In this document: positions 25,068 to 43,840 of the stretch, piece after piece | Position numbering within the stretch: position 1 is the stretch's first letter | Layout: every line of letters starts with the position of its first letter | Source of the DNA: Zarea fungicola | Taxonomy: Eukaryota > Ascomycota > Sordariomycetes > Hypocreales > Cordycipitaceae | Length of the DNA: 64,000 nt | Assembly: GCA_900169235.1 (NCBI GenBank) | Contig: FWCC01000239.1 | Coordinates: forward strand, 1 to 64,000 | Reading direction: 5' to 3' | Translations under genes and position numbers: made by a program | Notes under the pieces: model-generated | Told to the model about the DNA's origin: nothing | Database searches by the model: none | Seen by the model: the letters and a program-made list of their open reading frames with translations, nothing else

Positions 25068-26648
25068 TCATTGACTTTGCGAAACGGCCACGACTTTCGA
25101 GTCGCGTTTCCCTCGAGTGTGCACTGCGGCAACCTTGACGTACTTTGTTGTACTGCGAATCGCAGCCCTTGTTTCAAAGCCGGTACTTTTGACTGAGTGG
25201 GTATACTTGATATCCTGAGCCGTCGTGCCCTCATATATATCCCATTTCCGAATACCTGTTGCTCCATTCCAGCTTGCATACACATGGCCCGTCTGCGCAA
25301 AGACGGCGGGGTCGGCTGCTGGCACGCCTTCCCACTCCAGACGATATGCTCTGTATGACTGCTGGTTGCCGTTCAAGTCGCCGAATTGAAGTGACAGCCG
25401 CACATCGCCCCTCGGCCCGTATTCCTTGACAATCGGAATCTGGCCGTAGCCTTGCAACATGTTGCCATTGGGGAGCAGGCTCAAGGATCCTTGGCTGTTA
25501 GCAAAGAGGGCCTGTCTCGGATCGTGGTATTCTTGGATTAGAGTAGCTGTTTTCTTCCCAAGGTCGAGCGAGAGTAACAAGCCAAGAGTTTGGTTGACAC
25601 CGGAAAAGGGTGGTGAGGAATTAGCATTATCAAAGAGGTGAAGTACAGCACCGGTAGGTGTGATCTTGGAGATTCGTGCATGATGCTGCCAAGCCTATTA
25701 TTGCCGTTAGAAATTGGACGAAAGGCTTATATGGAAAGTATACATACGAATTGTATACCCGGTCCAAGGTGAAAGTCTCCTCCATTGGATCCCTAGAGAT
25801 GATGTTAGTCCGACACGTTTTTTGGAGTTACAGTAACTACTAGGCAGTACCTCTAAGCGCCACTGTACATCACCCCGTGAGCTAAGCAAGTATGTGGTCC
25901 ACGTATGCCTGCTGTTGACTAAATAGCTGCTCCCAACGCTCTGGATGGCGTTGATATGGAAGAAGTCGTATGGCTGCGCTTGGGTCCCTGAACTTCCAAG
26001 CGGTTGTTTTGAATCGGAAATTTTAATTCCACTTTCAAATGCGCTCCACGAAAATAGGATCTTTTGAGTCTGAATGTCTACTTCAAAGACCAAACAGTCA
26101 TAAATCCAACCGTTAGTCGGCCCGCCTTTTGGGGAAAGGTCTGCTTGGGTGACATTATACGCAGTGACGAGCAATGTGCCGCGCTCCGTTACGTATGACT
26201 CGTGCGTATCAGCCTGACACTCAGCTCGCTTTGATCCGTCTGCTGAAAGGCCAAGGTCTAAGCACAAGTTGTGTTTTGTAGTGTAACTAGAATCTAGTAT
26301 CTGGACGCTCCCGAAACCATGCCCTGCTGTCTGAGGATTTGGCGAACCGGTTCCGTTCCAGTAAGTCAACACCGGCTTCGAGTTCAGAGTTTGGACATTG
26401 AGGTTGGTGTAATCGCCCACGGCACTGGCCCATACAAGCTCCCCTTCATCTGTAACAATGATAGAGGCTGAATTAGGAGTGCCACTAGCTGTGAGGAACA
26501 AGTAGCCAGGTGCGAGTGCTCTTCCTGACTTGGTAACATTGAAAGCTGGGACGACAAATGGCACAGACCGATATGTCTGTGACGACCACGCACTAGACGT
26601 TGCCGACCATAAAGAAATGCCAAGCAATAATGAGTTGGAGAAAATCAT
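25068..26648 (-). CDS. Secreted arylsulfotransferase-like (ASST family) protein
   Basis: Exons 26648-25851, 25792-25748 (45 nt) and 25694-25068 give 489 residues. The chosen ATG gives a signal peptide (MIFSNSLLLGISLWSATSS); an extended frame upstream has no ATG. The pattern APGYLFLTASG, then DEGELVWASA, the repeated beta-propeller-like blades, DTHESYVTERGTLLVTAYN, DFFHINAIQSVGSSYLVNSRHT, and the short central exon GSNGGDFHLG with AWQHHARI, matches the arylsulfotransferase (Arylsulfotran_2) family of fungal secreted proteins. Conserved His residues in DTHES, FHIN, SRHT and WQHH lie where the bacterial ASST active site has its histidines. Enzymatic sulfotransfer is established for bacterial ASST but not, to my knowledge, for this fungal group. 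It converges on the SDR gene. Confidence 0.85.
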
Positions 26649-28358
26649 GATTAGAATAGAGGCAACAGTAAGAGCCAGCCGCGCAGAAAACACCCTTAAC
26701 AGAGTCGCGAGCGAAAGCAATGAGACAATAATACTCTAGTTAAGAGACATGAAGTGCGATTTATATACTTGTAAATAACGTAACTACCATTTACCGCAAC
26801 TTTCTCTTGAAAGCAATAAATTAAAATCATCATGTTCCAAGTCTGTTAAACTACGCAACAATGGCGAAGTTAAATCATCAAATGGCGACACTCACTAATT
26901 TGCCTGTTTATATTTCCGATCGACGTACTATTGGTCCACACTTGGACGCTAAGCGGCGATGGCGAAATCGTGCCAGCCGATGGCGACCATTGTTGTCTAT
27001 GAAGCGTTAATTTATTATCAATTTAAAAGCTATTTCATCCGAAATAATTTCCTAAACAAGTCAACGGCTTGCGGCTGTTGGGTGTTTTTATTGTCTTGCT
27101 TCCTTGGCTTAAGGCTAGTAGCTCAAGTGCTGACCAAGAGAATAAGCTGTGCTGTAGACCGACTCTACGCACAAGACCAAGTCGAAATTTTGCTCATTTT
27201 CAAGGACGGGTAATACTCTTGAACGTAATTATGATTTATAAAATTGTAGCTAATATTTCTCTATTACCTGTTAAATATAATTCGTAGAGAAAATGATCCT
27301 TATGAACATCTATGGATACCACATCGTCGTCATCGCGATCTTGCTTGGCATCTCCAGGATCGCGTGGATATAATCAGCCATGTTCAATCGGCATGTAGAG
27401 AGCTCTTGGCAAGTCATCTTGATTATCAAAAGCCACAAACCATCGCTCTGACTGCGTAGTCCTTGGCAGGTTTTTTTCCGATACGAACACACGAGGCTAA
27501 TGTGAACGGGCTGAATAAAAATGCCAGAGAGAAGTGAAAAGTATATGTGACGAGATTGATCCCTCATTCTGCAGGTTAATGCCTCGCTGATAAGCACTGA
27601 CTAAGATTGTGGCTTGTAGCCATGCCTCCTAGATAACCCCGGCAGTATTATGTTCGGGCGGCATTTGGCTGGGAGACCGCATAGAATCAGATTAGATCCA
27701 TCTCTCCGACAAAAACTCCGCTGGCCGAGACTAACATCGTTGTGGACCAGTTGGTTGTGCCCCTGCACATTTCCGCCGCGGTGCTACCATTGGCCCGTTC
27801 TAAACTAGAACTTTGTACACGGAGTTCCGTGAATGTCCTGAACTACACTTGATACCCGCCACATTCTGTAATGGTAGAAGTTTTTACACGGATTTCCGTA
27901 CTGCCCCCTTGATGAATTAGTAAAAAAGTCTGGTCATTTCCGCAAAAGACCACGATTAATATACTTCCACTCGAAGATGCCCCCATACCTTCAGGAAGAC
28001 TTCTCATCTTAGCGACGGCCATAGCCTTAACTCCGGGGGTTTTGACAGTTTCTTCCATAGGCTACACATTATTTTCATATAGTCCGCTAACATTTTCACA
28101 CAATGAGAGAAGATCAAGCTGATGCCAAGTCCACGAAGTGGAATGCTATGAAAGAACCTGGTTTCAAGTCCGCAATGACGATTCAATAGCCATAATAGAT
28201 CCATTCAGACACGATTGTAAAGAGTATAAAATGAACTTGATGCTCCCGCGACTTTCCAACTCAGATAGTCCACTACCAAGTTTCCTTTCTAGCAACCGAC
28301 CAATCTACATTATTAAGCAGTCCTCTCAGGATCCAATCCAACAACTCATCTCTTCAAC
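26649..28358. other. Intergenic; contains a duplicated inverted-repeat element
   Basis: No gene is supported. Two 25-nt direct repeats, 22 of 25 identical, lie at 27806-27830 and 27875-27899, each containing an inverted repeat (CACGGA/TCCGTG type). A TATAAAA at 28225-28231 precedes the aldo-keto reductase. Confidence 0.5.
28225..28231 (+). promoter_or_regulatory. TATA box of the aldo-keto reductase gene
   Basis: TATAAAA 128-134 bp upstream of the ATG at 28359, the only clear TATA element in the proximal promoter. Confidence 0.4.
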
Positions 28359-29519
28359 ATGACTGTTCCAACTCGTTCTCTGGGTCGCAATGGTCCTCTT
28401 GTTCAAGCCATTGGCTTTGGAGCAATGAGTTTCGCCGGTGTCTACGGTCAGACAACATCCTCTGCAGAGAAGCTACAAGTTCTGGACCGAGCCTATGAGA
28501 TTGGTGAACGATTCTGGGACACAGCAGATGTGTATGGCGACAGTGAAGACCAAATTGGCGAGTGGTTCGCAAAGTCAGGCAAGCGCGATGACGTCTTTAT
28601 CGCGACCAAGTTTGGTATTGTCGTTTCGCCTACTGAGGGGCTTACGGTGCGCACTGATCCAGATTATTGCCGTGAAGCATGCGAGAAGAGCTTGAAGAGG
28701 CTTGGAGTTGAAACAATTGACTTGTACTATATGCACCGCATTGATACTACCACCCCTATTGAAAAAACCATTGAGGTCATGGTCCAGCTAAAGAAGTAGG
28801 TTGCTGAAGCCTCGGTTCATAATAAGCTTTACTTTGCATAGCGCCTCAATATTGAAGAATAATGCTAATAATGAATTTAGGGAAGGAAAAATTCGCCATC
28901 TAGGACTGTCAGAGGTCTCAGCATCTGCTCTCCGCCGCGCCCATGCCGTCCACCCTATCTCAGCCTACCAGGTTGAGTATAGCCCTTTCAGTCTCGATAT
29001 CGAATCGCCCGAGTCTGGTATCCTTCAAACCTGTCGGGAACTCGGTATCGCGATTATCGCATACAGCCCTATTGGTCGAGGGCTTCTTACCGGACAGATT
29101 AAGAGCCCTGAGGACCTTCCAGAGGGTGATTTCCGGCGCAATGCTCCCAGGTACTCCCAGGAGAACTTTCCTCGCATCTTGGAACTGATTAAAAAGATCG
29201 AGTCCATTGCTGCTGTACACAAGTGTACAGTTTCACAAGTTTGTTTGGCCTGGCTACTTGCTCAGGGAAATGATATCATTCCAATCCCTGGCACCAGGAC
29301 GATCAAGTATCTGGAACAAAACACGCAGGCAGCCAACATCACATTGACTCAGAAAGAGGTGGACGATTTGAGGAAGTATTCAGAGGAGTCGAACATTATC
29401 GGACAGCGTTTTCCAGATTCGTAAGTTGCTTGAGGTTTGACGAACGCAATTCATGCTAACAGTTTCTCAGTTACAGCAACTTAGCCGTCCGAGACTCGGC
29501 CCCTCTTGATACAAACTAG
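28359..29519 (+). CDS. Aldo-keto reductase
   Basis: Three exons (28359-28795, 28881-29420, 29471-29519) encode 341 residues. The NADPH-dependent AKR tetrad is visible: Asp and Tyr in [11 protein letters not shown], Lys in FIATKFG, His in [30 protein letters not shown] and IPIPGTR complete the (beta/alpha)8 pattern. The family is closest to the AKR13/pyridoxal-reductase-like group (fungal YakC-type). Exon 3 is short; without it the protein would stop at a TAA formed by the donor site, and joining it yields [15 protein letters not shown], the usual C-terminal tail. The donor, CTAAC branch site and acceptor are all present. It is convergent with the broken reductase gene at 30.5-31.7 kb. The substrate is unknown. 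Confidence 0.92.
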
Positions 29520-30528: not shown

Positions 30529-31702
30529 CTACTTTATGCCCAGCAGCTCTAGGTAGTGGCCTACCACACTAAGAACTTGCTCTTCAAACGACTTAAACTT
30601 GATGCCAAAGGCCTCTTCAGCCTTGGTGCTGCTCACACGCATAACACCCGTCAATGGTCGCTCCGTTGTAGTCTTGAACACTCCCTCTGCACACTCTTTG
30701 GGATATTTAGCTTCAATAATGTCGAAGATACGCGCCCACTCAATTCCATCCGGATGTTCAGAGCTTGCAAGAAACTCCTGATTACCGGGAATATTTTGGC
30801 GCAGAGAGTGCACGTGCATTAATGCAACATCGTCAAGATGCACCGACGCGCCGGGGTATGGGCCCATTGGATATCCAAGCAGCGGACCCATGATGAGAAG
30901 ATTCGTGCCCTTTGTGATTTTTTTCGATTTCTGTAACGGTGTCATCACGACCAAGAACAAATGTTGGCTGAATGTGGATGACGTCAAAGTACGGCCTGTG
31001 TGTAGCCATCCATTCTTTCGTAGCATTGAAGGCTCTTGACTTTGCACCCACATACGCAGTCATACTGTTGGTAAAGGGTCCCTCAGATTCGGCGGATCGA
31101 CGCGACTCTGCGAGAATTATCAGCTCAAGCAGATTCATTGGAAGAATCGTCGTGGTATTGTGGCGTCACGTACCGTCAAGTACCAGATCGGAACCAATAT
31201 CGCATATGCCAATAGTAGATGATACAGACCCGGTAATTACGATTCTCTTGATCCATGTGGTTCGTTTTGCTGATTCTAGCATCCCGATGGTTCCTCTCAC
31301 AGCGGGATTAATGAGCTCGGTTTCAAAGTCTGCATCGTCTGGCACACTCGCGGCTATCGGTGACGCCACGTGGATGATGTACTCGACTCCCTTAACGGCA
31401 TCGTCATATGCACCGGAAATTGTAATATCTGGGACAATGATAGCTGTAAGTTGATCTATGTATGGTAATGTCGGCTTCAAGGTTTTGATCTTGTCAAAGC
31501 CAGCTTGATTGCGGACAGCCGCCCGAACCTGGTAACCAGACTCTAACAGTCGAACCAACACACGGTATCCAATCCTTCCCGTGGAACCGGTTAGCTAGAG
31601 AATTTTCCCGGTTAGAATCGCTAATCCTTTCTAGGGCAACTGAGTAGACGACATTTTCCGGGTTCATTGGGAAGTTATACTAACAAGAACAAAACTGCCC
31701 AT
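30529..31702 (-). CDS. NAD(P)-dependent reductase/epimerase (dihydroflavonol-4-reductase-like), frame broken
   Basis: Exons 31702-31685 (18 nt), 31594-31174 and 31107-30529. The 6-codon first exon joined to exon 2 restores the Rossmann glycine motif TGSTGRIGYRV at the very N-terminus (GxxGxxG). IIHVASPI, VITGSVSS and the catalytic YVGAK (Y164, K168) identify an extended SDR related to dihydroflavonol/aldehyde reductases. After VTEIEK the frame shifts by one at a run of seven T (plus strand 30918-30924); the second frame then reads ITKGTNLLIMGPLLGYP and completes the substrate domain to the stop at 30529. One base fewer would give 338 residues, the normal family length. As written the protein ends early and lacks the substrate-binding half. 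Either recent inactivation or a homopolymer assembly error explains this. Confidence 0.8.
30918..30924 (-). other. Frameshift site in the DFR-like reductase
   Basis: A seven-base homopolymer (A7 in coding orientation). Family-like sequence continues in the +1 frame immediately downstream, and the total length becomes normal if the run is one base shorter. Confidence 0.7.
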
Positions 31703-35244: not shown

Positions 35245-38200
35245 TCATTGCGTACATGCGTAGACCTCCTCAACCCACCGCTCTCCCAACGCCTCCCTGA
35301 TAGATGTTACTCCTATTATTGCTTCCAGATTTCGTGCAAAATCATCTGCTGCCTCCTTTGATGCACAAACAAAAACATTTGCTCTTTCATCCCGAATTTT
35401 GGACTTGATTTGTTCCTTAATACTCTCTTCAAATACTCTGTCCTGAACTCGCTCCTTCGCCGGATTGCTTGGCATAAGATGTAGCATATCGACCAGGCCC
35501 AGATTAATCGCTTCCTGGAAGGAGTCTTTGATAATTGGCAAATCACATGACCTGAAACCAAGGAATAGAGAGATAGGGCCGTTTGAACCCTTCACGTCAC
35601 CTGTGACGTCTTCCAGCTTTGAGCCATTTTCTGCTGCTTTCTTGATCACAAGATTACACCTGGCCTGCAACAGACCACGCAGTGGTGCAATACCGGATCC
35701 AGTTGTGAAGACAATCAGAGGCTTCTGGTCATGGACCAAGTGCTCGCCCGGTCCTTGGCGCATCCGGACGTGCAGCTGGTCTCTCTTCTCTGCGTCGGAC
35801 AGGAAGCAGTCCGTAAAGAGTCCGCCAGTATGAGTCTGTACGGCGAGTTCTAATATACTGCTCATGCCGAGTGCGTCCCAGTATTCTTGAGACGAGGCGG
35901 CAGAAAATGTTCTTGACTGCCGAATGGGAAGTGCTTGAAGGAAAGCAGAAAGATCTCCGCGCTTAAGTTGTGCCTGCCAGCAGACCGGTAAACTTTGCAT
36001 GGAAGTTTCCAGCGGCATCTGGAGAAACTTGACAGAGTTGACTTCAGAGATTTCCAATCCGAGTTTGGTTGCCCACTGAAGGTTCCTAAATGGTGCTGTT
36101 GGGTCCACGAGCGAGAAGACCTGTCTCGTGCTAACCTGTGTCTCACCCAATGTCAAGACCTCGTTGCCAGTAAGCCTGCAGGTACAGAGAAGACTGTCGA
36201 CTGCATCTCTGTTGAGCGGCACGAACACATCAACATGGCTCATGTGACTGTATTTGAGCCCACCTACGTCAAGGGCCACATGCTTAATGCCCGATGCATT
36301 GGGTTGCTGAATGGAGCCTATCTCCACTAGTGAAAGCTGATCCAACAGCTGCCCAAGAGCATCGTCGACCACTACATCGGCATCACAAGATCCGTCTGTA
36401 TGGTCACTGCTATTGCCATATCTCGCTCTGACGAGATCCGACCACGCCTCGAATTGTCTCCAAGGCGGGTCTTCCTTGAGTGTATCCGCGTAAAACAACG
36501 GTAAGTCACACTTTAAGCCAGAGTTGCAGAGCGCGCTCTGTATCTTGGTGCCAGCGCCGTTGAAGTTATCCCCATACGAAGAATTGCCGTTACCGAATAT
36601 GCAGAAAGAAGCCCCACCTTGTTGGGTCGATTTGCGTGATTTGCATTTTGCCAACAATGACGCGCCATTCACTGGTACATCACCACGGCCGCGGGAACTT
36701 GCAATGATGAAGATGACATCCTCATCGGAAAGAGTGTCCGGTTCAAGCTGGTTGAGTGGCGCTACCGAGGGGACCATGTGGTGTCTTTTGCTGTCTGCCA
36801 TTATTCCTGCAATCCTCTGCTCCAATTTGGTAGCTAGACGGTGAGCAGTAGTGCCGGAGCTGCAATAGAATATCCGTATCGCCGGTCTAGCCGGCGGTGG
36901 TACGACGTTGGTGTTGCTGCCATTGCCCAAGCATTTCGGCAGGGTAACCATGGTTCCATTAGCTCCATTAGTGTACCCATTGCAAAGCAGATTGCCATTC
37001 GACTTTGGCTTTGCAGTGTCTTTCTCAGCCCTCAGCCTCCTCCATACCTTAATTGGACTCTCCTTTAGTCGGCAAATCATAGGCTTAGGCTGATAATTGG
37101 GCGCAGCTCCGCGGTGCCATATTGGGATGATGCTGCCTTCTGGAGGGGCCAGCCAGTAAGGGTCTGCTGGTAGGCGGAAGCCGTATCGCTCCAGGTGATC
37201 CTCATCAAAGCTAGTGTACATGGCACTTGCGGTGAGACTATCGCTCATTCGAACACCGGCTTCTTTAAATGACCAGTGCACGGCGAAATTGAGTTCCGCC
37301 TGAGCATGGGACAGGAGTGCAAGTTTCTCGCTTTGAGACAGTTCGTCAAGTTCCTGACCGGGTTGAAGGAGTTTGAGAGCTGAGACAACTGACGGTAGGA
37401 CATTGTATCGAAAGCTGTCGGCGAGATCACGAACGCCGATTTCAGCATCCATAAACCAGCCGATGAAAGGGGCGGCTGTGTATTGCACACCACCGATATC
37501 AAACCCCAGTTGGGACAGGGCTGGTGCGGGAACCCAACGAAGTCCCAACTTTTCGAATGCGAGAGAATATTCTTTGCGCGGGTGACGAATCTGGACAAGT
37601 GGGAACAAATCTTCTGGGATTGGCGTTATGTACGGCTCATCGCCATCCATCATGGTAACAAGGGGAAGAAGGTCCCAACGTGTGCGCAGCATTGGGGGTT
37701 TCCAACCAATGGAAATAATAGCATCTGTCAGAGACACATTTACGGGATCTCCTAGTATGCTACCATCCGGTTGGCGATAGCCCGCAAATGCCAACAACTG
37801 CTGGTTCCACACCATAGGGCCAGGGCGGCCACGCGGCTTAGGTGTGAAGACAAACACTACTATGTGTTAGATGAGAACATCATACTAGTTCTTCACATAT
37901 TGGGGTGCATAATACCTGAAGGGTCTATATCTCCGCCATTAAACGCTTGATGCATCCCTTCAAGCAGAGCTTGACCCATCTCTTTGCTGGTGGTCAGGTG
38001 CCTCAAGTCGCGTAAACTGTGAACATGGAGTCAGACTTTCCGTGGAACTAAGACTTTGAACGGGAAGCAGAGATAAATTACCGTAAGCTATTATATTCAC
38101 TTCGCATGATGCACTTTCTTGCGTGCTTCCAGGATAACCTGACGCCATGCTCGAGCTCCGGAGGTGACTGATGCCAAACGCCGGAGTTGGGCTCGGAAGG

Positions 38201-38524
38201 AGGTTCAGTGCCTTGTCCGTTTGTATGTGGTGGTCGAAAAACATTGGAACGAAGCTCATTGAGAACGGTAAGCACTCTTTCTGCTAGAGATGTATCGCTC
38301 TTGATGATGCCATCTCTCCGGAGTTGGTGCAAGAAGTCAACCGCTTCAGCTTCAACAGTTTCGTTGTCCTGACAATCAATACCTACTCGCTGCTCATCCG
38401 TATGCACCATTCTACCACTCTGACAGAATGATCGAGTACATCCTGTGGATGAGAGCTGAGGATAGTGCTTTTCTATTCTCCTGAATTCCTCTTGAGGGGA
38501 TGGTATTTTGGTTGTAAAAGACAT
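35245..38524 (-). CDS. NOS: Nitric oxide synthase (full-length oxygenase-reductase)
   Basis: Three exons (38524-38082, 38016-37916, 37859-35245) give 1052 residues, close to inducible animal NOS. The protein should oxidise L-arginine to citrulline and NO using NADPH, FAD, FMN, heme and a pterin. Oxygenase (about 1-440): zinc CX4C (C29-C34), heme ligand C138 in SWKHARKCIMR, AFAGYRQPDGSILGDPVNV, the arginine-binding Glu (E321) in GWFMDAEIGVRDLAD, and PADPYWLAPPEGS near the dimer/pterin surface. A basic linker (about 444-470, KVWRRLRAEK) follows. Then a flavodoxin domain (about 507-665: FYCSSGTTAHRLA, FGNGNSSYG) and a FAD/NADPH module (RTFSAASS, TTGSGIAPLRG, VFVCASKEAADDF). Every splice junction preserves conserved sequence, and the reading frame is intact. 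The start is the first ATG in the exon-1 frame. NOS is sporadic in fungi; Zn, heme and Arg residues argue for activity. The neighbouring flavohemoglobin suggests a NO role. Confidence 0.93.
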
Positions 38525-40611
38525 TGCAGAAGTATTGGGGTGGTATTCATAAGAAGGTCTTTGCTTTTTCCGGGATGAATAACCGTCACTCAAAAACAAA
38601 GTAGGTCAGAGCATTTTATATCCCTGCTGACTGCCAATAATTACAACAAGGCTACTGGGGAGTGTAAATAGATGAGAGATGGGGTTAAAGAGCGAATGCT
38701 CTTGATTCGACTGATCGGCATCACTCTGCAACTATGATACGCCATGCTTGAAAGTAACCGTATTACTCTCGACACTACCAGGAGGGCGTATGTCACACAA
38801 AGTATGCTCATAGAGTCATAATATCTATGCACCACTGCGGTCGCCACTCTTGGCATAGTGGCTTTGCTCCGGCATAATTGCATCCTGCATACGGGACTTT
38901 TGTGACTGTTGACTTGTTTGCAAGCAACGTATCCATGGATGCCTGATGCCTGACCTGGATACGAGACGGTCAGGCCATGACGGTGGCTGTGGATATTTGC
39001 TGTTTGCTGTTTGCTGCGTGAAAGGGTGTGGCACTATTTGAGCTGTATGCTTCTCACGGCGTGCGAACAAATGGTACGATACTACGATGACAGATTCTAA
39101 AAAGTCGCAAGGCAATTAAAATGAACAATTCTCTTCTCCAAAATTAACTCTTTGAATAGTTCTTTCTGAGGATCTCAAACTCTCTTGGGGCTTAAGATTA
39201 ATACAAAAGTGGTGCCTTTTATGCAACCCCGGATGTACTCGAAGCGTATTCGATCACAGATAAAGAACTCGAAAAGATAGAGTATGTATGACTAGATCTG
39301 CCATCTAAGGTTAATGTGGTCGACCAAATTTGGACGATTGGCCGACTGAAGTCTACTTCCTTCATTACTAAAATGAAAACTCTGAAAGTCATGCGTATAA
39401 AGTAACGTAACACACGTCAATGCATACGACCAGTCAAAATGGCTGTGTCTATTCGAGAAGCATACAGGAAGCACCTCATCTGAAGTCCGTAAGCTGATCG
39501 ACACATTTCAGCACGCCACATGTTATAGTATAGCAACCCACGTATATTTGAGAAAGTGACGTTTGAATCAGTTCATTCGTCATCACAGCTGCAGAGCGAG
39601 TCATAATAACTGCGACATGATGTATACAAGCACGCATCTTTCAGGTGCAGTGTCGCAATTGCCAATTTGTGATCTTGGCTAAAGTTCAGCTGCGGGGGTG
39701 CAAGAGACTATAGAACAGTAACTGACGTTGAGGTCGTACAATGCATCAGGTGACTGTTGCAAGATAATAATAAGAAAAATAGAACTGGTGTGGGCTTTTA
39801 AGCCACCGTTATCTCGATAGAGCCACAACGCGAGGGAAAGGCAGACATTGATTCCGGTCCCGAACCCCCGAATCGCGAAATCAATAAACCCGATGGCTTT
39901 TCTGGGGAGCTTGTGGCTGGCTCCGCTGGACGTAAGATCTGTCCCACATGGTGTCATCGCGCACATCGAGCCTGCCTTGTGGATGAGATTGGGGGTGGCA
40001 AATTTAAGAGGAAATAAGTTGCGAGCCAAGAGTCGGGTGGGTGCGGATGAGAAAGGCCCCGAGAGTCTAGAAATCTTTTACTGCTCTGCCGTAGGTAACC
40101 CTTCTATTGCTAGCCGGCGCTTCCTCTCTACACAGTAATGTCTATTCCTATGTTACCGCACCGTGTGCAAGTTCAAATTAGAATTCAATACGTGCCAAAT
40201 ATTCCGTTACATGTGTATCGCGAGGAGGATTTATGAGGCCGGCAGCAAGATTAAGCAGGCGGATAACGCCAGTTAACTAATTAGTGGCGGAACAGAATTT
40301 CCCCAGAGTCGCTAACTCCGAACTCATTCTTAACCCATATGCCATGGTAGAAGTGGATTCGCCTTTCTGCATCGCGGGGCCCCCCAGGTCTCGCATGCCG
40401 TCTCGCCAATCGGCTAGCATCTGATACCGGGCGCTCACTTGCCCAGATAGCTGCCATGGTCGCTCGTACGTAACTCTTTAATGGCTTCAGCGCCAGTTTA
40501 TTTCCAACAATGCGTTCTACATCAATCCAGTCATGCTCACAAGCGCTTTGCTGAAGCGGCAATCCTTCAGCGCCAGACCAGAACGTCGGAGACGTGGATC
40601 AATCCGGCACA
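38525..40611. promoter_or_regulatory. Divergent upstream region of NOS and bZIP genes
   Basis: 2.1 kb shared upstream space. Candidate bZIP sites are TGACGT at 39557-39562 and GAGTCA at 39598-39603; both are short and could be chance. A membrane-protein-like fragment lies within (listed separately). Confidence 0.4.
39679..40029 (-). pseudogene. Possible membrane-protein exon or remnant
   Basis: An open stretch of 116 codons reading SHKLPRKAIGFIDFAIRGFG then INVCLSLALWLYRD looks like a first transmembrane segment of a fungal integral membrane protein. No convincing continuation is found downstream, although another open piece at 39413-39219 is in the same direction. Unrecognised; it may be a decayed gene or chance. 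Confidence 0.2.
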
Positions 40612-41310
40612 ATGATGAACGCAGCAGATGTCGTTTTGGATGGAATTTCCGTCATTGATGGCGAATTTCTCAGCACGGATCTCAATTCATCTGTGTTTCC
40701 ACCCTCCCTTGGCTCAAGTGGAAGCATTTCTAGCTTACTGCCCAACATGAGGATATTTTCGCCCCAGGATCTCCGAGTTCCCGAGTCTGTCATATCTGCC
40801 TCTGGCTCCGCTTCTACTGATACTTTAACGCCTGAACTTACATGCAATGACTCATCAAACTTGTTTGGTAATGGTGGACTTTTCAACCACAAGTCTGCTG
40901 ATGCCGATGCCGATGCCGTGAAAGACAATTTGCATCCGTTGTTCCGTGGGGATTCAAACGATCCCGTGGCTGCGAAGCCAGAAAGGTCTCACGAGACCGG
41001 ATCCAACTCTGTTATAAAGAGTTACAGACACAATACCCGCCAGTCTAGCGGATTTCATGTCTGCAGTTGTCACCACACTACCATTGCCGGTGTCAACGGG
41101 AGCGAGCGTTACAAGCCTCTACTGCTTACTACCAGGGAGCAAGGTAACCAAGTTGCCGCTGCAAAGAGAGTTCGCAATACTATCGCGGCTCGAAAGTCTC
41201 GAGAGCGTAAAGCTCAGCGTATGGATGAGCTCAAGAATACAATTACCAAGCTCGAAGCGGAGCGCGACGACTGGAAAAGGGCAGCTCTGTCTCGATTTGA
41301 AGCTCAATAA
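40612..41310 (+). CDS. CPC1/GCN4-like bZIP transcription factor
   Basis: Single exon, 232 residues from ATG 40612. The N-terminal 150 residues are acidic and Ser-rich with a DADADAV repeat, as in activation domains. The C-terminus is a bZIP: AAAKRVRNTIAARKSRERKA, then RMDELKNTITKLEAERDDWK and a short tail. The basic region NTxAARKSRERKAQR is nearly that of cross-pathway-control factors (Neurospora CPC1, Aspergillus CpcA, yeast Gcn4), which bind TGACTCA and activate amino-acid biosynthesis on starvation. The zipper is short. The long 5' leader with upstream reading frames needed for Gcn4-type translational control was not resolved. Because the main cpc1 orthologue is usually a larger gene, this is more likely a paralogue. 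It lies between NOS and flavohemoglobin, so it is a candidate local regulator. Confidence 0.85.
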   Translation: MMNAADVVLDGISVIDGEFLSTDLNSSVFPPSLGSSGSISSLLPNMRIFSPQDLRVPESVISASGSASTDTLTPELTCNDSSNLFGNGGLFNHKSADADADAVKDNLHPLFRGDSNDPVAAKPERSHETGSNSVIKSYRHNTRQSSGFHVCSCHHTTIAGVNGSERYKPLLLTTREQGNQVAAAKRVRNTIAARKSRERKAQRMDELKNTITKLEAERDDWKRAALSRFEAQ

Positions 41311-42502
41311 AAGCCTGCCTTACTAGTGCTAAAGGCCGATGTTATTGTTCTTTCAATTGCTCATGTACTATTTCTATCTGCATTTTTAAGGTGTCAATGC
41401 AAACGAAAATAAGAATGATTTTAGACAGTTGACTAATAGTCAGGTCATTCTACAAAGCCTATGAGCCCAAAGGAAACCATTAACAAAGCCTCAATTGTTA
41501 TCTTTTCGTCCAGGTCACTGTATGAATGTTTGCACTCACCAAGTCGCTTGCACGTGCCACAGCCAGTAAATCGGGAAACTCGTTCATGGTCATTGCCGAG
41601 ATGTAGAAATGAGCTCCTGAAGTTTCATCAAACAGTGTGTAGCATTCTCGGAGTACTCTTGGCATGCGGGGGTGTGGCTCGTCGGCGTACTTTAGCGTAT
41701 TACTACTCGTGCATCGGCACATTATTCTTTCGACGAATCCGACGGCTAACACCTCTTGCCAAGATAGCACGCAATACCTCCATCAACTGCCAAGCAAAGT
41801 CATGTCCGTTAGTCCTGCCGGTAGGCCGTAAACCAGTGGCGTTACTTGGCGATTTGTACCGTTATGTAAGTTATGGGCACACACCCCTCCCCGCGATGAG
41901 CATGAGCTTGGCGAGCCGGGCTCATAATACTTCAACAAGAAACAGAAGCTAGTACCCCGGACAAGTATTTGGAATTTTTCATTGCTCGGCGTTACTTTAT
42001 ACGCTCCAAGAAATGCCTAGGTAGTACCACAATGCCGTGTTTGGAATTCAGTTCTAATGTCAGAATAACTAACAGACGCATATAGCTTAAAATATCTGTA
42101 ATGGTCATCATTAATAGGATACAATTTCTAGAACTATGTTACAAAAGATTCACCAGGCACTAGCTGTAGCAGTCACTCATTCTGTGGACTGTGTTACCTG
42201 TAATTTTGTATTGTAGTACAGGTTTGCAGGGCCTTCGATGCAGCTATTGCGGAGGTGCTACTTTTCAAGCATGTCTCAGTAACATTTGATATATATTTGG
42301 GGGGATATCCTGCTCAACTGGAACTTTATTTCTTCCTAGACTCGTTTGTCCCCGACGATTCTTTGTATAAGAGACACCTGCGTTCCTCCCTTTTTCATCC
42401 TCGTAAGTTTGGACGCAGTTCTGCTTTGCGCCGATAAAACGAGGCATCACTTTGAATATTCTACACACCTCATCCTCCTGCACCAAGATCACTCCCGCAT
42501 CC
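41311..42502. promoter_or_regulatory. Spacer upstream of the flavohemoglobin gene
   Basis: A near-perfect inverted repeat TGACTAATAGTCA at 41430-41442 contains AP-1/Yap-like half sites. A possible F-box gene fragment lies at 41498-41770 (listed separately). The flavohemoglobin promoter itself shows no clear TATA box. Confidence 0.4.
41498..41770 (-). pseudogene. Fragment of a protein-coding gene, possibly F-box-type
   Basis: The 90-codon open stretch reads HPRMPRVLRECYTLFDETSG, HFYISAMTMNEFPDLLAVARASDL and NIHTVTWTKR, which looks like genuine protein sequence. It resembles the region after the F-box in fungal F-box proteins, where hits end in a TVTW-like strand. It has no start exon or C-terminal continuation. 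The assignment is weak. Confidence 0.25.
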
Positions 42503-43840
42503 ATGGCTCTCACGCAGTCCCAAATCGACATTGTAAAGTCGACCGTGCCTATCCTTAAACAGCACGGTAACACAATCACCACCATCTTCTACCAGAACCT
42601 GTTTAACGAGCACCCCGAGCTTAAAAATTACTTCTCCCTCCGTAACCAGGCGACTGGCGCGCAGCAGGCCGCCCTCGCTGCCTCTGTCTTTGCCTATGCC
42701 ACCTATATTGACGATCTCCCCAAGCTCCAGAATGCTGTTGAGCGTATCGCCCAGAAGCACACCTCACTATTCATCAGGCCTGAGCATTACCCGATTGTTG
42801 GTAAGCACCTTGTCGGTGCCTTTGCGGAAGTCCTCGGTGACGGGCTCAGCCCTGAAGTGGCCGATGCTTGGACGGCGGCATATGCGCAGCTCGCCGACAT
42901 CTTTGTTGCACGCGAGAAACAAATTTACAACTGCGCTCCTACATGGCAGAGCTGGCGTGATTTTACCATTGCCGCTATTGAAGACGTTGCTCAAGGTATC
43001 GTTAGCTTCTATCTAGAGCCTGAAGACGGGATGCCCGTGCCGAGTTTCCTCCCCGGCCAGTACGTCTCCGTCCAGATTCCTATCCCGGAGCTCGGTGGTC
43101 TACTGCAGAGCCGCCAGTATAGCCTCAGCACCGCGCCGGGCGAGCACCTCGCCGGATACCGCATCACTATCAAGCGTGAGGGCAGCGGCGGCAGCGGCAT
43201 CAGCAACAGCAATAACAGCAACGGTGTGAACGGCGCCGACGCTTCAGAGCTTACGGCCAGCCGCATTGCCGGCGTTGTTGGCAACCGCCTGCATGACCAC
43301 TACCGCGTAGGCGACAAGGTCCAGGTCAGCCCGCCCCGCGGGGAGTTCGTCTTTGACGCTACCAAGATTTCCCCATCCACTCCCGTCGCCCTCATCTCTG
43401 CCGGCGTAGGTGCCACACCGCTGCTCTCGATCCTCTATTCCATCTGGGCAGCCAGCGCTGACAACAACACCGCCTATAACACCGCTTTCCCCGCGGCCCG
43501 TTCCGTGACTTGGGTGCACGCTGCACGCAACTCCGGCGCCGTGTGCTATGGCAAACAAGTACGTCAGCTTGCTGCCGATGCCGGTGCCAACATCACTGCC
43601 AAGGTGTTCCTTGATAGCGTCACCGAAGCCGACACTCCAGGAATTGATTACGATTACGCTGGCTTCTTTGATATGACCGCACTCCTGGAGGACGAGGTCC
43701 TGCCGCTGGGGAACCGGGATGCTGAGTACTTTATCTGTGGTCCCAAGGACTGGATGCTCAAGGTCCGTGCTGACTTGTATGCCAATGGGGTTGACTCAGA
43801 CAAGGTGCATCTCGAGCTGTTTGCTACAGGCGATGTATAG
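42503..43840 (+). CDS. FHB: Flavohemoglobin (nitric oxide dioxygenase)
   Basis: Single exon, 445 residues. It converts NO and O2 to nitrate with NADPH, in the cytosol. Globin domain: Tyr B10 in FYQNLF, Gln E7 in SLRNQ, proximal His in QKHTSLFIRPEHYPIVGKHL. The FAD site RQYSLSTAPG and the NAD(P) site GVGATPLLSIL follow, ending VHLELFATGDV. Overall organisation is that of bacterial Hmp and yeast Yhb1. Between the FAD and NADPH parts (about residues 226-256) it carries a Gly/Ser/Asn-rich insertion absent from Hmp. The ATG is the first that aligns with the family start. The gene is G+C rich with strong codon bias, unlike NOS. Fungi often have two flavohemoglobins; this copy sits 4 kb from NOS and is well placed to protect the producer from its own NO. 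Confidence 0.96.
   Translation: MALTQSQIDIVKSTVPILKQHGNTITTIFYQNLFNEHPELKNYFSLRNQATGAQQAALAASVFAYATYIDDLPKLQNAVERIAQKHTSLFIRPEHYPIVGKHLVGAFAEVLGDGLSPEVADAWTAAYAQLADIFVAREKQIYNCAPTWQSWRDFTIAAIEDVAQGIVSFYLEPEDGMPVPSFLPGQYVSVQIPIPELGGLLQSRQYSLSTAPGEHLAGYRITIKREGSGGSGISNSNNSNGVNGADASELTASRIAGVVGNRLHDHYRVGDKVQVSPPRGEFVFDATKISPSTPVALISAGVGATPLLSILYSIWAASADNNTAYNTAFPAARSVTWVHAARNSGAVCYGKQVRQLAADAGANITAKVFLDSVTEADTPGIDYDYAGFFDMTALLEDEVLPLGNRDAEYFICGPKDWMLKVRADLYANGVDSDKVHLELFATGDV

Follow-up and report, generated by a model that had tools for sequence, protein, structure and literature searches.

The closest described relatives of the locus studied here are the globin–NOS fusions of cyanobacteria and Spirosoma (SyNOS type), in which a globin is likewise coupled to a nitric oxide (NO) synthase (NOS) with a diflavin reductase; one such fusion in our survey, L025, has the order Globin-NOS-Flavodoxin-FAD-NAD. 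Among fungi, Aspergillus carries flavohemoglobins (FHb) in pairs, one cytosolic and one mitochondrial. How fungi make NO, and whether NOS-like genes do so, is to our knowledge an open question. Here we analysed a window of 64,000 nucleotides (the whole stretch of DNA under study) from Zarea fungicola, part of contig C278 of a 43.1-Mb genome in 456 contigs, the introns and gene content of which look like those of a filamentous ascomycete. A NOS gene and an FHb gene lie about 4 kb apart in this window in divergent orientation, with a bZIP gene sitting in between. The SyNOS type is a single polypeptide, whereas the fungal locus consists of two divergent genes, the globin having its own FAD/NAD reductase (FHb). 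The best single reading, which we hold tentatively, is that the two genes form a divergent NO source/sink pair.

Intact NOS and flavohemoglobin genes lie in divergent orientation

The original prediction, that a full NOS, a CPC1-like bZIP protein and a flavohemoglobin are encoded side by side, is confirmed by the open frames and by Pfam, NCBIfam and PDB sequence searches. The NOS open reading frame (ORF), on the minus strand at 38524–35245, encodes 1051 aa and is continuous over two short introns. Exon 1 (38082..38524; ORF, PDB search, Pfam and alignment) contains the start ATG, a C-x4-C motif and the heme-Cys loop W-x5-C (KCIMR); exon 2 (37916..38016) was placed by splice reconstruction and genome search. 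Exon 3 (35245..37856; Pfam, NCBIfam and alignments) holds the remaining oxygenase (GWFMDAEIGVRD), a linker, the flavodoxin and FAD/NADPH reductase parts, and the stop codon, and the acceptor of the final intron may alternatively be 3 nt earlier. In the PDB sequence search, residues 114–432 match NOS chains (best 9q05, E 3.6e-69). The oxygenase is 40% identical to the 9q05 chain, which we take from its name and length to be SyNOS, with a globin that presumably acts as an NO dioxygenase. Exon 3 matches Pfam NO_synthase PF02898 (216.8 bits, cut-off 22.7) and Flavodoxin_1 (31.8 bits), while FAD_binding_1 and NAD_binding_1 were not reached by Pfam; its residues 324–735 match NCBIfam cysJ at 52.8 bits, far under the equivalog cut-off of that model. 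Almost the whole length of the reductase can be aligned to that of a P450-reductase fusion of the same genome (24% identity over 558 positions), and exon 3 aligns with a Spirosoma NOS over 910 positions at 25% identity, reductase included. Together with the Flavodoxin_1 match, these alignments place a diflavin reductase, FAD/NADPH part included, in the same chain, the eukaryotic type of arrangement. NOS is single copy, the P450-reductase fusion on contig C85, CYP505-type by eye, being the only further match in the genome.

By alignment, NOS keeps the heme-loop Trp and Cys common to SyNOS-type and human NOS, and all three agree at the W, M, E, I, R and D positions of the motif GWxMxxEIxxRD (GWFMDAEIGVRD here). 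The kept Cys is taken as the heme ligand, and the kept positions also include those assigned to substrate (Glu and Arg) and pterin (Trp and Arg) binding. The linker is of low complexity, and no calmodulin site was recognised in it by eye. A structure prediction of exon 3 from 11 sequences was not used (mean predicted local distance difference test score, pLDDT, 52.1; predicted template-modelling score, pTM, 0.30).

The FHb gene (42503..43840, plus strand; open frame, Pfam, NCBIfam and alignment) encodes 445 aa in an open frame. Residues 3–442 match the NCBIfam model 'NO-inducible flavohemoprotein' at 403.9 bits, under the model cut-off of 432. Pfam matched PF00042 and PF00175, and gave no match to FAD_binding_6. 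The FY, AQQ and KHTS motifs line up with those of a second genomic copy (FHb2) and of bacterial neighbour proteins described below, and are presumably the Tyr, Gln and His of the heme pocket. FHb2 is 70% identical to FHb and lies on C96, a contig other than that of NOS. Its N-terminus, MFRLSPLTRRTLKSTLQQPFRPP..., reads by eye as a mitochondrial-type presequence; the window FHb has no N-terminal presequence and is predicted to be cytosolic. The two copies differ mainly at third codon positions (mismatches per codon position 0.22/0.16/0.49), so both are under selection.

The adjacency itself would rarely arise at random. Assuming about 15,000 genes, our own post hoc arithmetic gives a chance of about 5 in 10,000 that one of two FHb genes lies within two gene positions of the sole NOS.

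A 15-nt word unique in the genome lies upstream of both genes

A repeat search between the two genes gave 39393..39407 (minus strand) and 41990..42004 (plus strand) as a perfect 15-nt inverted pair, CGTTACTTTATACGC. Since the genes are divergent, both copies have the same orientation relative to their gene, one preceding the NOS start by 883 nt and the other preceding that of FHb by 513 nt. These are the only two exact copies in the genome. When first-order Markov versions of both upstream regions were simulated in 2000 trials, pairs sharing at least 15 nt appeared in 4 in the same orientation (0.002) and in 7 in either orientation (0.0035), for a word that was tested post hoc. Placements of equal geometry along the window, overlapping at 250-nt steps, reached 15 nt in 4 of 240 cases, all 4 including this pair; 14 nt was reached at one other place, in five overlapping placements near 12.8–13.8 kb. 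The 10 kb surrounding FHb2 (L007) have no site at up to three mismatches and one at four. Neither a short repeat of dispersed type that lies upstream of NOS (38885..39015, no strand assigned; repeat search) nor a second short repeat near NOS spans the word. Regulation shared by all three genes had been proposed; for NOS and FHb there is one sequence-level support, the genome-unique word, and none was found for the bZIP part.

Taken together, a source/sink pairing of NOS and FHb is plausible. NOS, with its own diflavin reductase, would convert L-arginine to NO and citrulline. The presequence-free FHb would turn NO and O2 into nitrate, limiting cytosolic NO, and this nitrate may give nitrogen back. 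One or more upstream control elements are likely to be common to NOS and FHb.

NOS–globin coupling recurs in bacteria

Bacterial sequences scanned with an alignment of three NOS proteins yielded at least 599 stretches, of which 583 were confirmed and the best 80 kept; the kept loci lean towards the first, SyNOS-like sequence of the alignment, and some end at contig ends. A globin search of these 80 loci with five queries at E 1e-4 found a match in 22 and none in 58. The match shares one open frame with NOS in 13 loci, where the best query is the first domain, which is not a globin according to Pfam. A fused globin over the Pfam cut-off is present in 9 of the 80 (L018, L020–L024, L025, L026 and L028). 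Two fused globins are weaker, L017 scoring 21.1 bits against a cut-off of 22 and L027 matching only the second Spirosoma globin by blast, and L029 and L030 were dropped as candidate fusions when checking found no globin. A separate globin or FHb-like match lies within 2 kb of NOS in eight further loci, upstream on the same strand in seven and on the opposite strand in L095; one more locus has a separate match 9.6 kb away. Pfam, run on six of the eight, found a globin over cut-off in all six, accompanied by FAD_binding_6 and NAD_binding_1 in L031, L045, L066, L067 and L075, and the open frame of L090 ends at 228 aa. The adjacent matches of L069 and L095 are based on alignment. Were such matches spread evenly over 10 kb on each side, at least 8 of 9 would fall within 3 kb with P 0.0004, but several of the genomes are relatives of one another and the figure takes no account of cut flanks. 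With 17 of the 80 loci coupled (19 with the two weaker fusions), NOS–globin coupling recurs in bacteria.

The survey also turned up further arrangements. In the actinobacterial loci L031, L045, L066, L067, L069, L075 and L090, the FHb-like globin-reductase gene that precedes NOS could encode a sink or an electron donor. In L032, L033, L050 and L068, NOS is part of a single frame of 1066–1093 aa. For L032 and L033, Pfam finds in its N-terminal half an FAD/NAD reductase, a BFD-like [2Fe-2S] domain and a pair of cyclic-nucleotide-binding domains, and L050 and L068 are alike by eye; such proteins are possibly ligand-controlled, self-sufficient NOS. The cyanobacterial globin–NOS of L017 (8801-10000) has two EF hands (EF-hand_1, 48.9 bits) before its sub-threshold globin remnant, and calcium control is possible there.

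The bZIP gene is a diverged CPC1 paralog

The bZIP gene (40612..41310, plus strand; ORF, PF07716 at 28.8 bits, and alignment) has its first ATGs at 40612 and 40615. It is a diverged, full-length paralog (146 bits, 45–46% identity) of a gene on C189 that we take to be CPC1. Mismatches between the two per codon position are 0.37/0.32/0.48, a third-position excess much weaker than that of FHb, which suggests relaxed constraint or saturation. Upstream ORFs are expected for translational control of the CPC1/GCN4 type, and in the CPC1 leader on C189 the 900 nt before the start contain three, with lengths of 45, 2 and 40 codons. By blastn, the bZIP upstream region shares with this leader a 36-nt match beside the start codon and one insignificant 15-nt match, and no similarity to its upstream ORFs was found. 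Upstream of NOS there are two TGACTC half-sites, against 1.0 expected; two 14-nt repeats containing TGACTC are also found there, and they are not longer than other repeats listed.

Points against a joint function and alternative explanations

Several observations weigh against the source/sink pair. Regarding the shared word, CGTTACTTTATACGC was found after other searches and is, being post hoc, suggestive; it resembles no site known to us, and a small local duplication could account for the pair as well. When one mismatch is allowed, 4 copies occur in the genome and 3 of a backward-read control, which leaves the exact copies as the sole distinctive ones; the two one-mismatch copies, one inside a kinase-like frame and one beside another gene, have no evident link. 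Regarding codon usage, the G+C content at third codon positions (GC3) is 0.51 in NOS, 0.47–0.48 in bZIP, 0.67 in FHb and 0.87 in FHb2. Conserved genes of the window have values of 0.70 (PMT), 0.82 (Rab), 0.70 (PNS1) and 0.66 (CHY), and the ABC transporter, the aldo-keto reductase and other accessory genes of the window have 0.48–0.55. NOS and bZIP thus look like the accessory stretch and FHb like a conserved gene. The unlike GC3 of NOS and FHb gives no sign of common codon selection, and this composition speaks against a block that was inherited and tuned as a unit. Regarding NO removal, P450nor is encoded on C157 (7 matching pieces, 60–73% identity), and both it and FHb2 can also remove NO. 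The original prediction had named other flavohemoglobin copies doing all NO removal as one of the findings that would refute it; this applies in part, as a second FHb and P450nor do exist, although the window FHb is the only one of the two FHb copies without a mitochondrial-type presequence. In bacteria, 61 of the 80 loci have no counted coupling, and in six actinobacterial adjacent cases the NOS frame is 398–582 aa, too short for a reductase, so that the FHb-like neighbour there may be an electron donor, not a sink. Finally, neither TGASTCA nor TGACGTCA occurs upstream of any of the three genes; a single TGASTCA lies within the bZIP ORF. With no such sites and weak codon-position constraint relative to CPC1, the proposed role of bZIP as regulator of the module has no sequence support, and bZIP was not accepted as a CPC1-type regulator of NOS and FHb. 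A three-gene module with a bZIP regulator is therefore unsupported, and bZIP is probably not required for the source/sink reading.

The strongest alternative is that chance has brought together NOS, a CPC1 paralog in decay and an FHb for general detoxification, FHb answering NO of any origin and NOS having a separate role. NO can originate from nitrate or nitrite reduction, from hosts and from competitors. The composition above fits this explanation, with FHb near PMT, CHY and PNS1 and the other two genes near the accessory stretch, as do the 4 kb and the additional gene between NOS and FHb. The genome also offers other sources and sinks, namely P450nor, FHb2 and a nitrate-reductase-like frame on C210 (by eye), a possible other NO source. 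What chance would leave as coincidence is the low random adjacency, the genome-unique word upstream of both genes and the recurrent coupling in bacteria. We regard chance neighbourhood as a serious possibility, if on the whole a doubtful one.

A second alternative concerns NOS itself, which might be a NOS-like enzyme and no classical NO producer, being of low activity, using a folate-type pterin or forming another product, in which case FHb would be irrelevant to it. In its heme loop CIMR, W-x5-C-x-G-R is kept in Trp and Cys, and a Met occupies the position two after the Cys where SyNOS-type and human NOS have Gly. Among the 79 loci parsed of the 80 kept, CIGR occurs in 65, CVGR in 13, CIAR in 1 and CIMR in none, so that 78 of 79 have C[IV]GR. 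The reductase has CAS where CGD is usual and SSRGRGD where STFGNGE is usual, the second site also varying in some bacterial rows. A genome search at E 0.001 found neither PTPS nor a biopterin-dependent hydroxylase. The same search found GTP cyclohydrolase I on two contigs, C301 and C115, each match in two pieces, so intron-split genes are detectable by it. Given these missing pathway genes, the NOS cofactor is likely a folate-type pterin. However, bacterial NOS function with folate-type pterins, the positions we take to be the heme Cys, substrate Glu and pterin-site Trp and Arg are kept, and the reductase is alignable almost throughout in an intact frame. An atypical enzyme of this kind is improbable. 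Independently of this, the second GTP cyclohydrolase I copy might supply the NOS cofactor. A secondary-metabolite cluster using NO for nitration was rejected, as no polyketide synthase, nonribosomal peptide synthetase or P450 backbone was seen by eye among the window frames read, a partial search given that the Pfam scan covered 10 chosen frames.

Other features of the window

It had also been stated that nearby genes are broken. Judged by eye on some window neighbours, this applies to one gene, an NAD-dependent reductase-like gene at 30532-31594 (minus strand), whose frames overlap and which is probably frameshifted; the aldo-keto reductase gene at 28317-29421 looks like a normal intron-bearing gene. 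An arylsulfotransferase-like gene (ASST) at 25068-26735 (minus strand) has its Pfam match in two open pieces. Of the dispersed repeat upstream of NOS, the rest of the genome contains at least 22 partial copies, and a 123-nt stretch at 39788-39910 has a single 93% identical copy on C162. A sigma-70 and terminator scan, which is meaningless in a fungus, gave nothing clearly over chance.

Comparison with known systems

Returning to the source/sink pair, an intact NOS beside a presequence-free FHb with a unique common upstream word is a concrete pair for study. In its boldest form, this reading would make the locus the equivalent, in two genes of a eukaryote, of the bacterial globin–NOS fusion, a self-limiting arginine-to-nitrate route that is chromosomally linked and switched by a dedicated, genome-unique shared element; that all of this applies is unlikely. 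The fungal NOS has the same oxygenase, FMN, FAD/NADPH order as animal NOS (nNOS, iNOS and eNOS) and a C-x4-C in its N-terminal part, where we assume the motif to have the same role. Unlike animal NOS, it has by eye no long nNOS-type FMN insert and no recognisable calmodulin site, and its heme loop is CIMR. As in fungal FHb pairs, there are two copies, one with a mitochondrial-type presequence; here one copy is linked to NOS. The actinobacterial NOS (Kribbella, Nocardioides, Embleya and others) likewise have an FHb-like globin-reductase gene at most 2 kb away. Their arrangement is different, with the neighbour on the same strand and upstream in 7 of 8 and a NOS frame without room for a reductase in six, and the five FHb-like proteins scanned score only 95–134 bits on the flavohemoprotein model, where the window FHb reaches 404. 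The bacterial loci show that a NOS and a globin have come together repeatedly, either fused or as neighbours, and this suggests that making NO and dealing with it locally often form a single function. The locus is best filed as a further variant of NOS–globin coupling.

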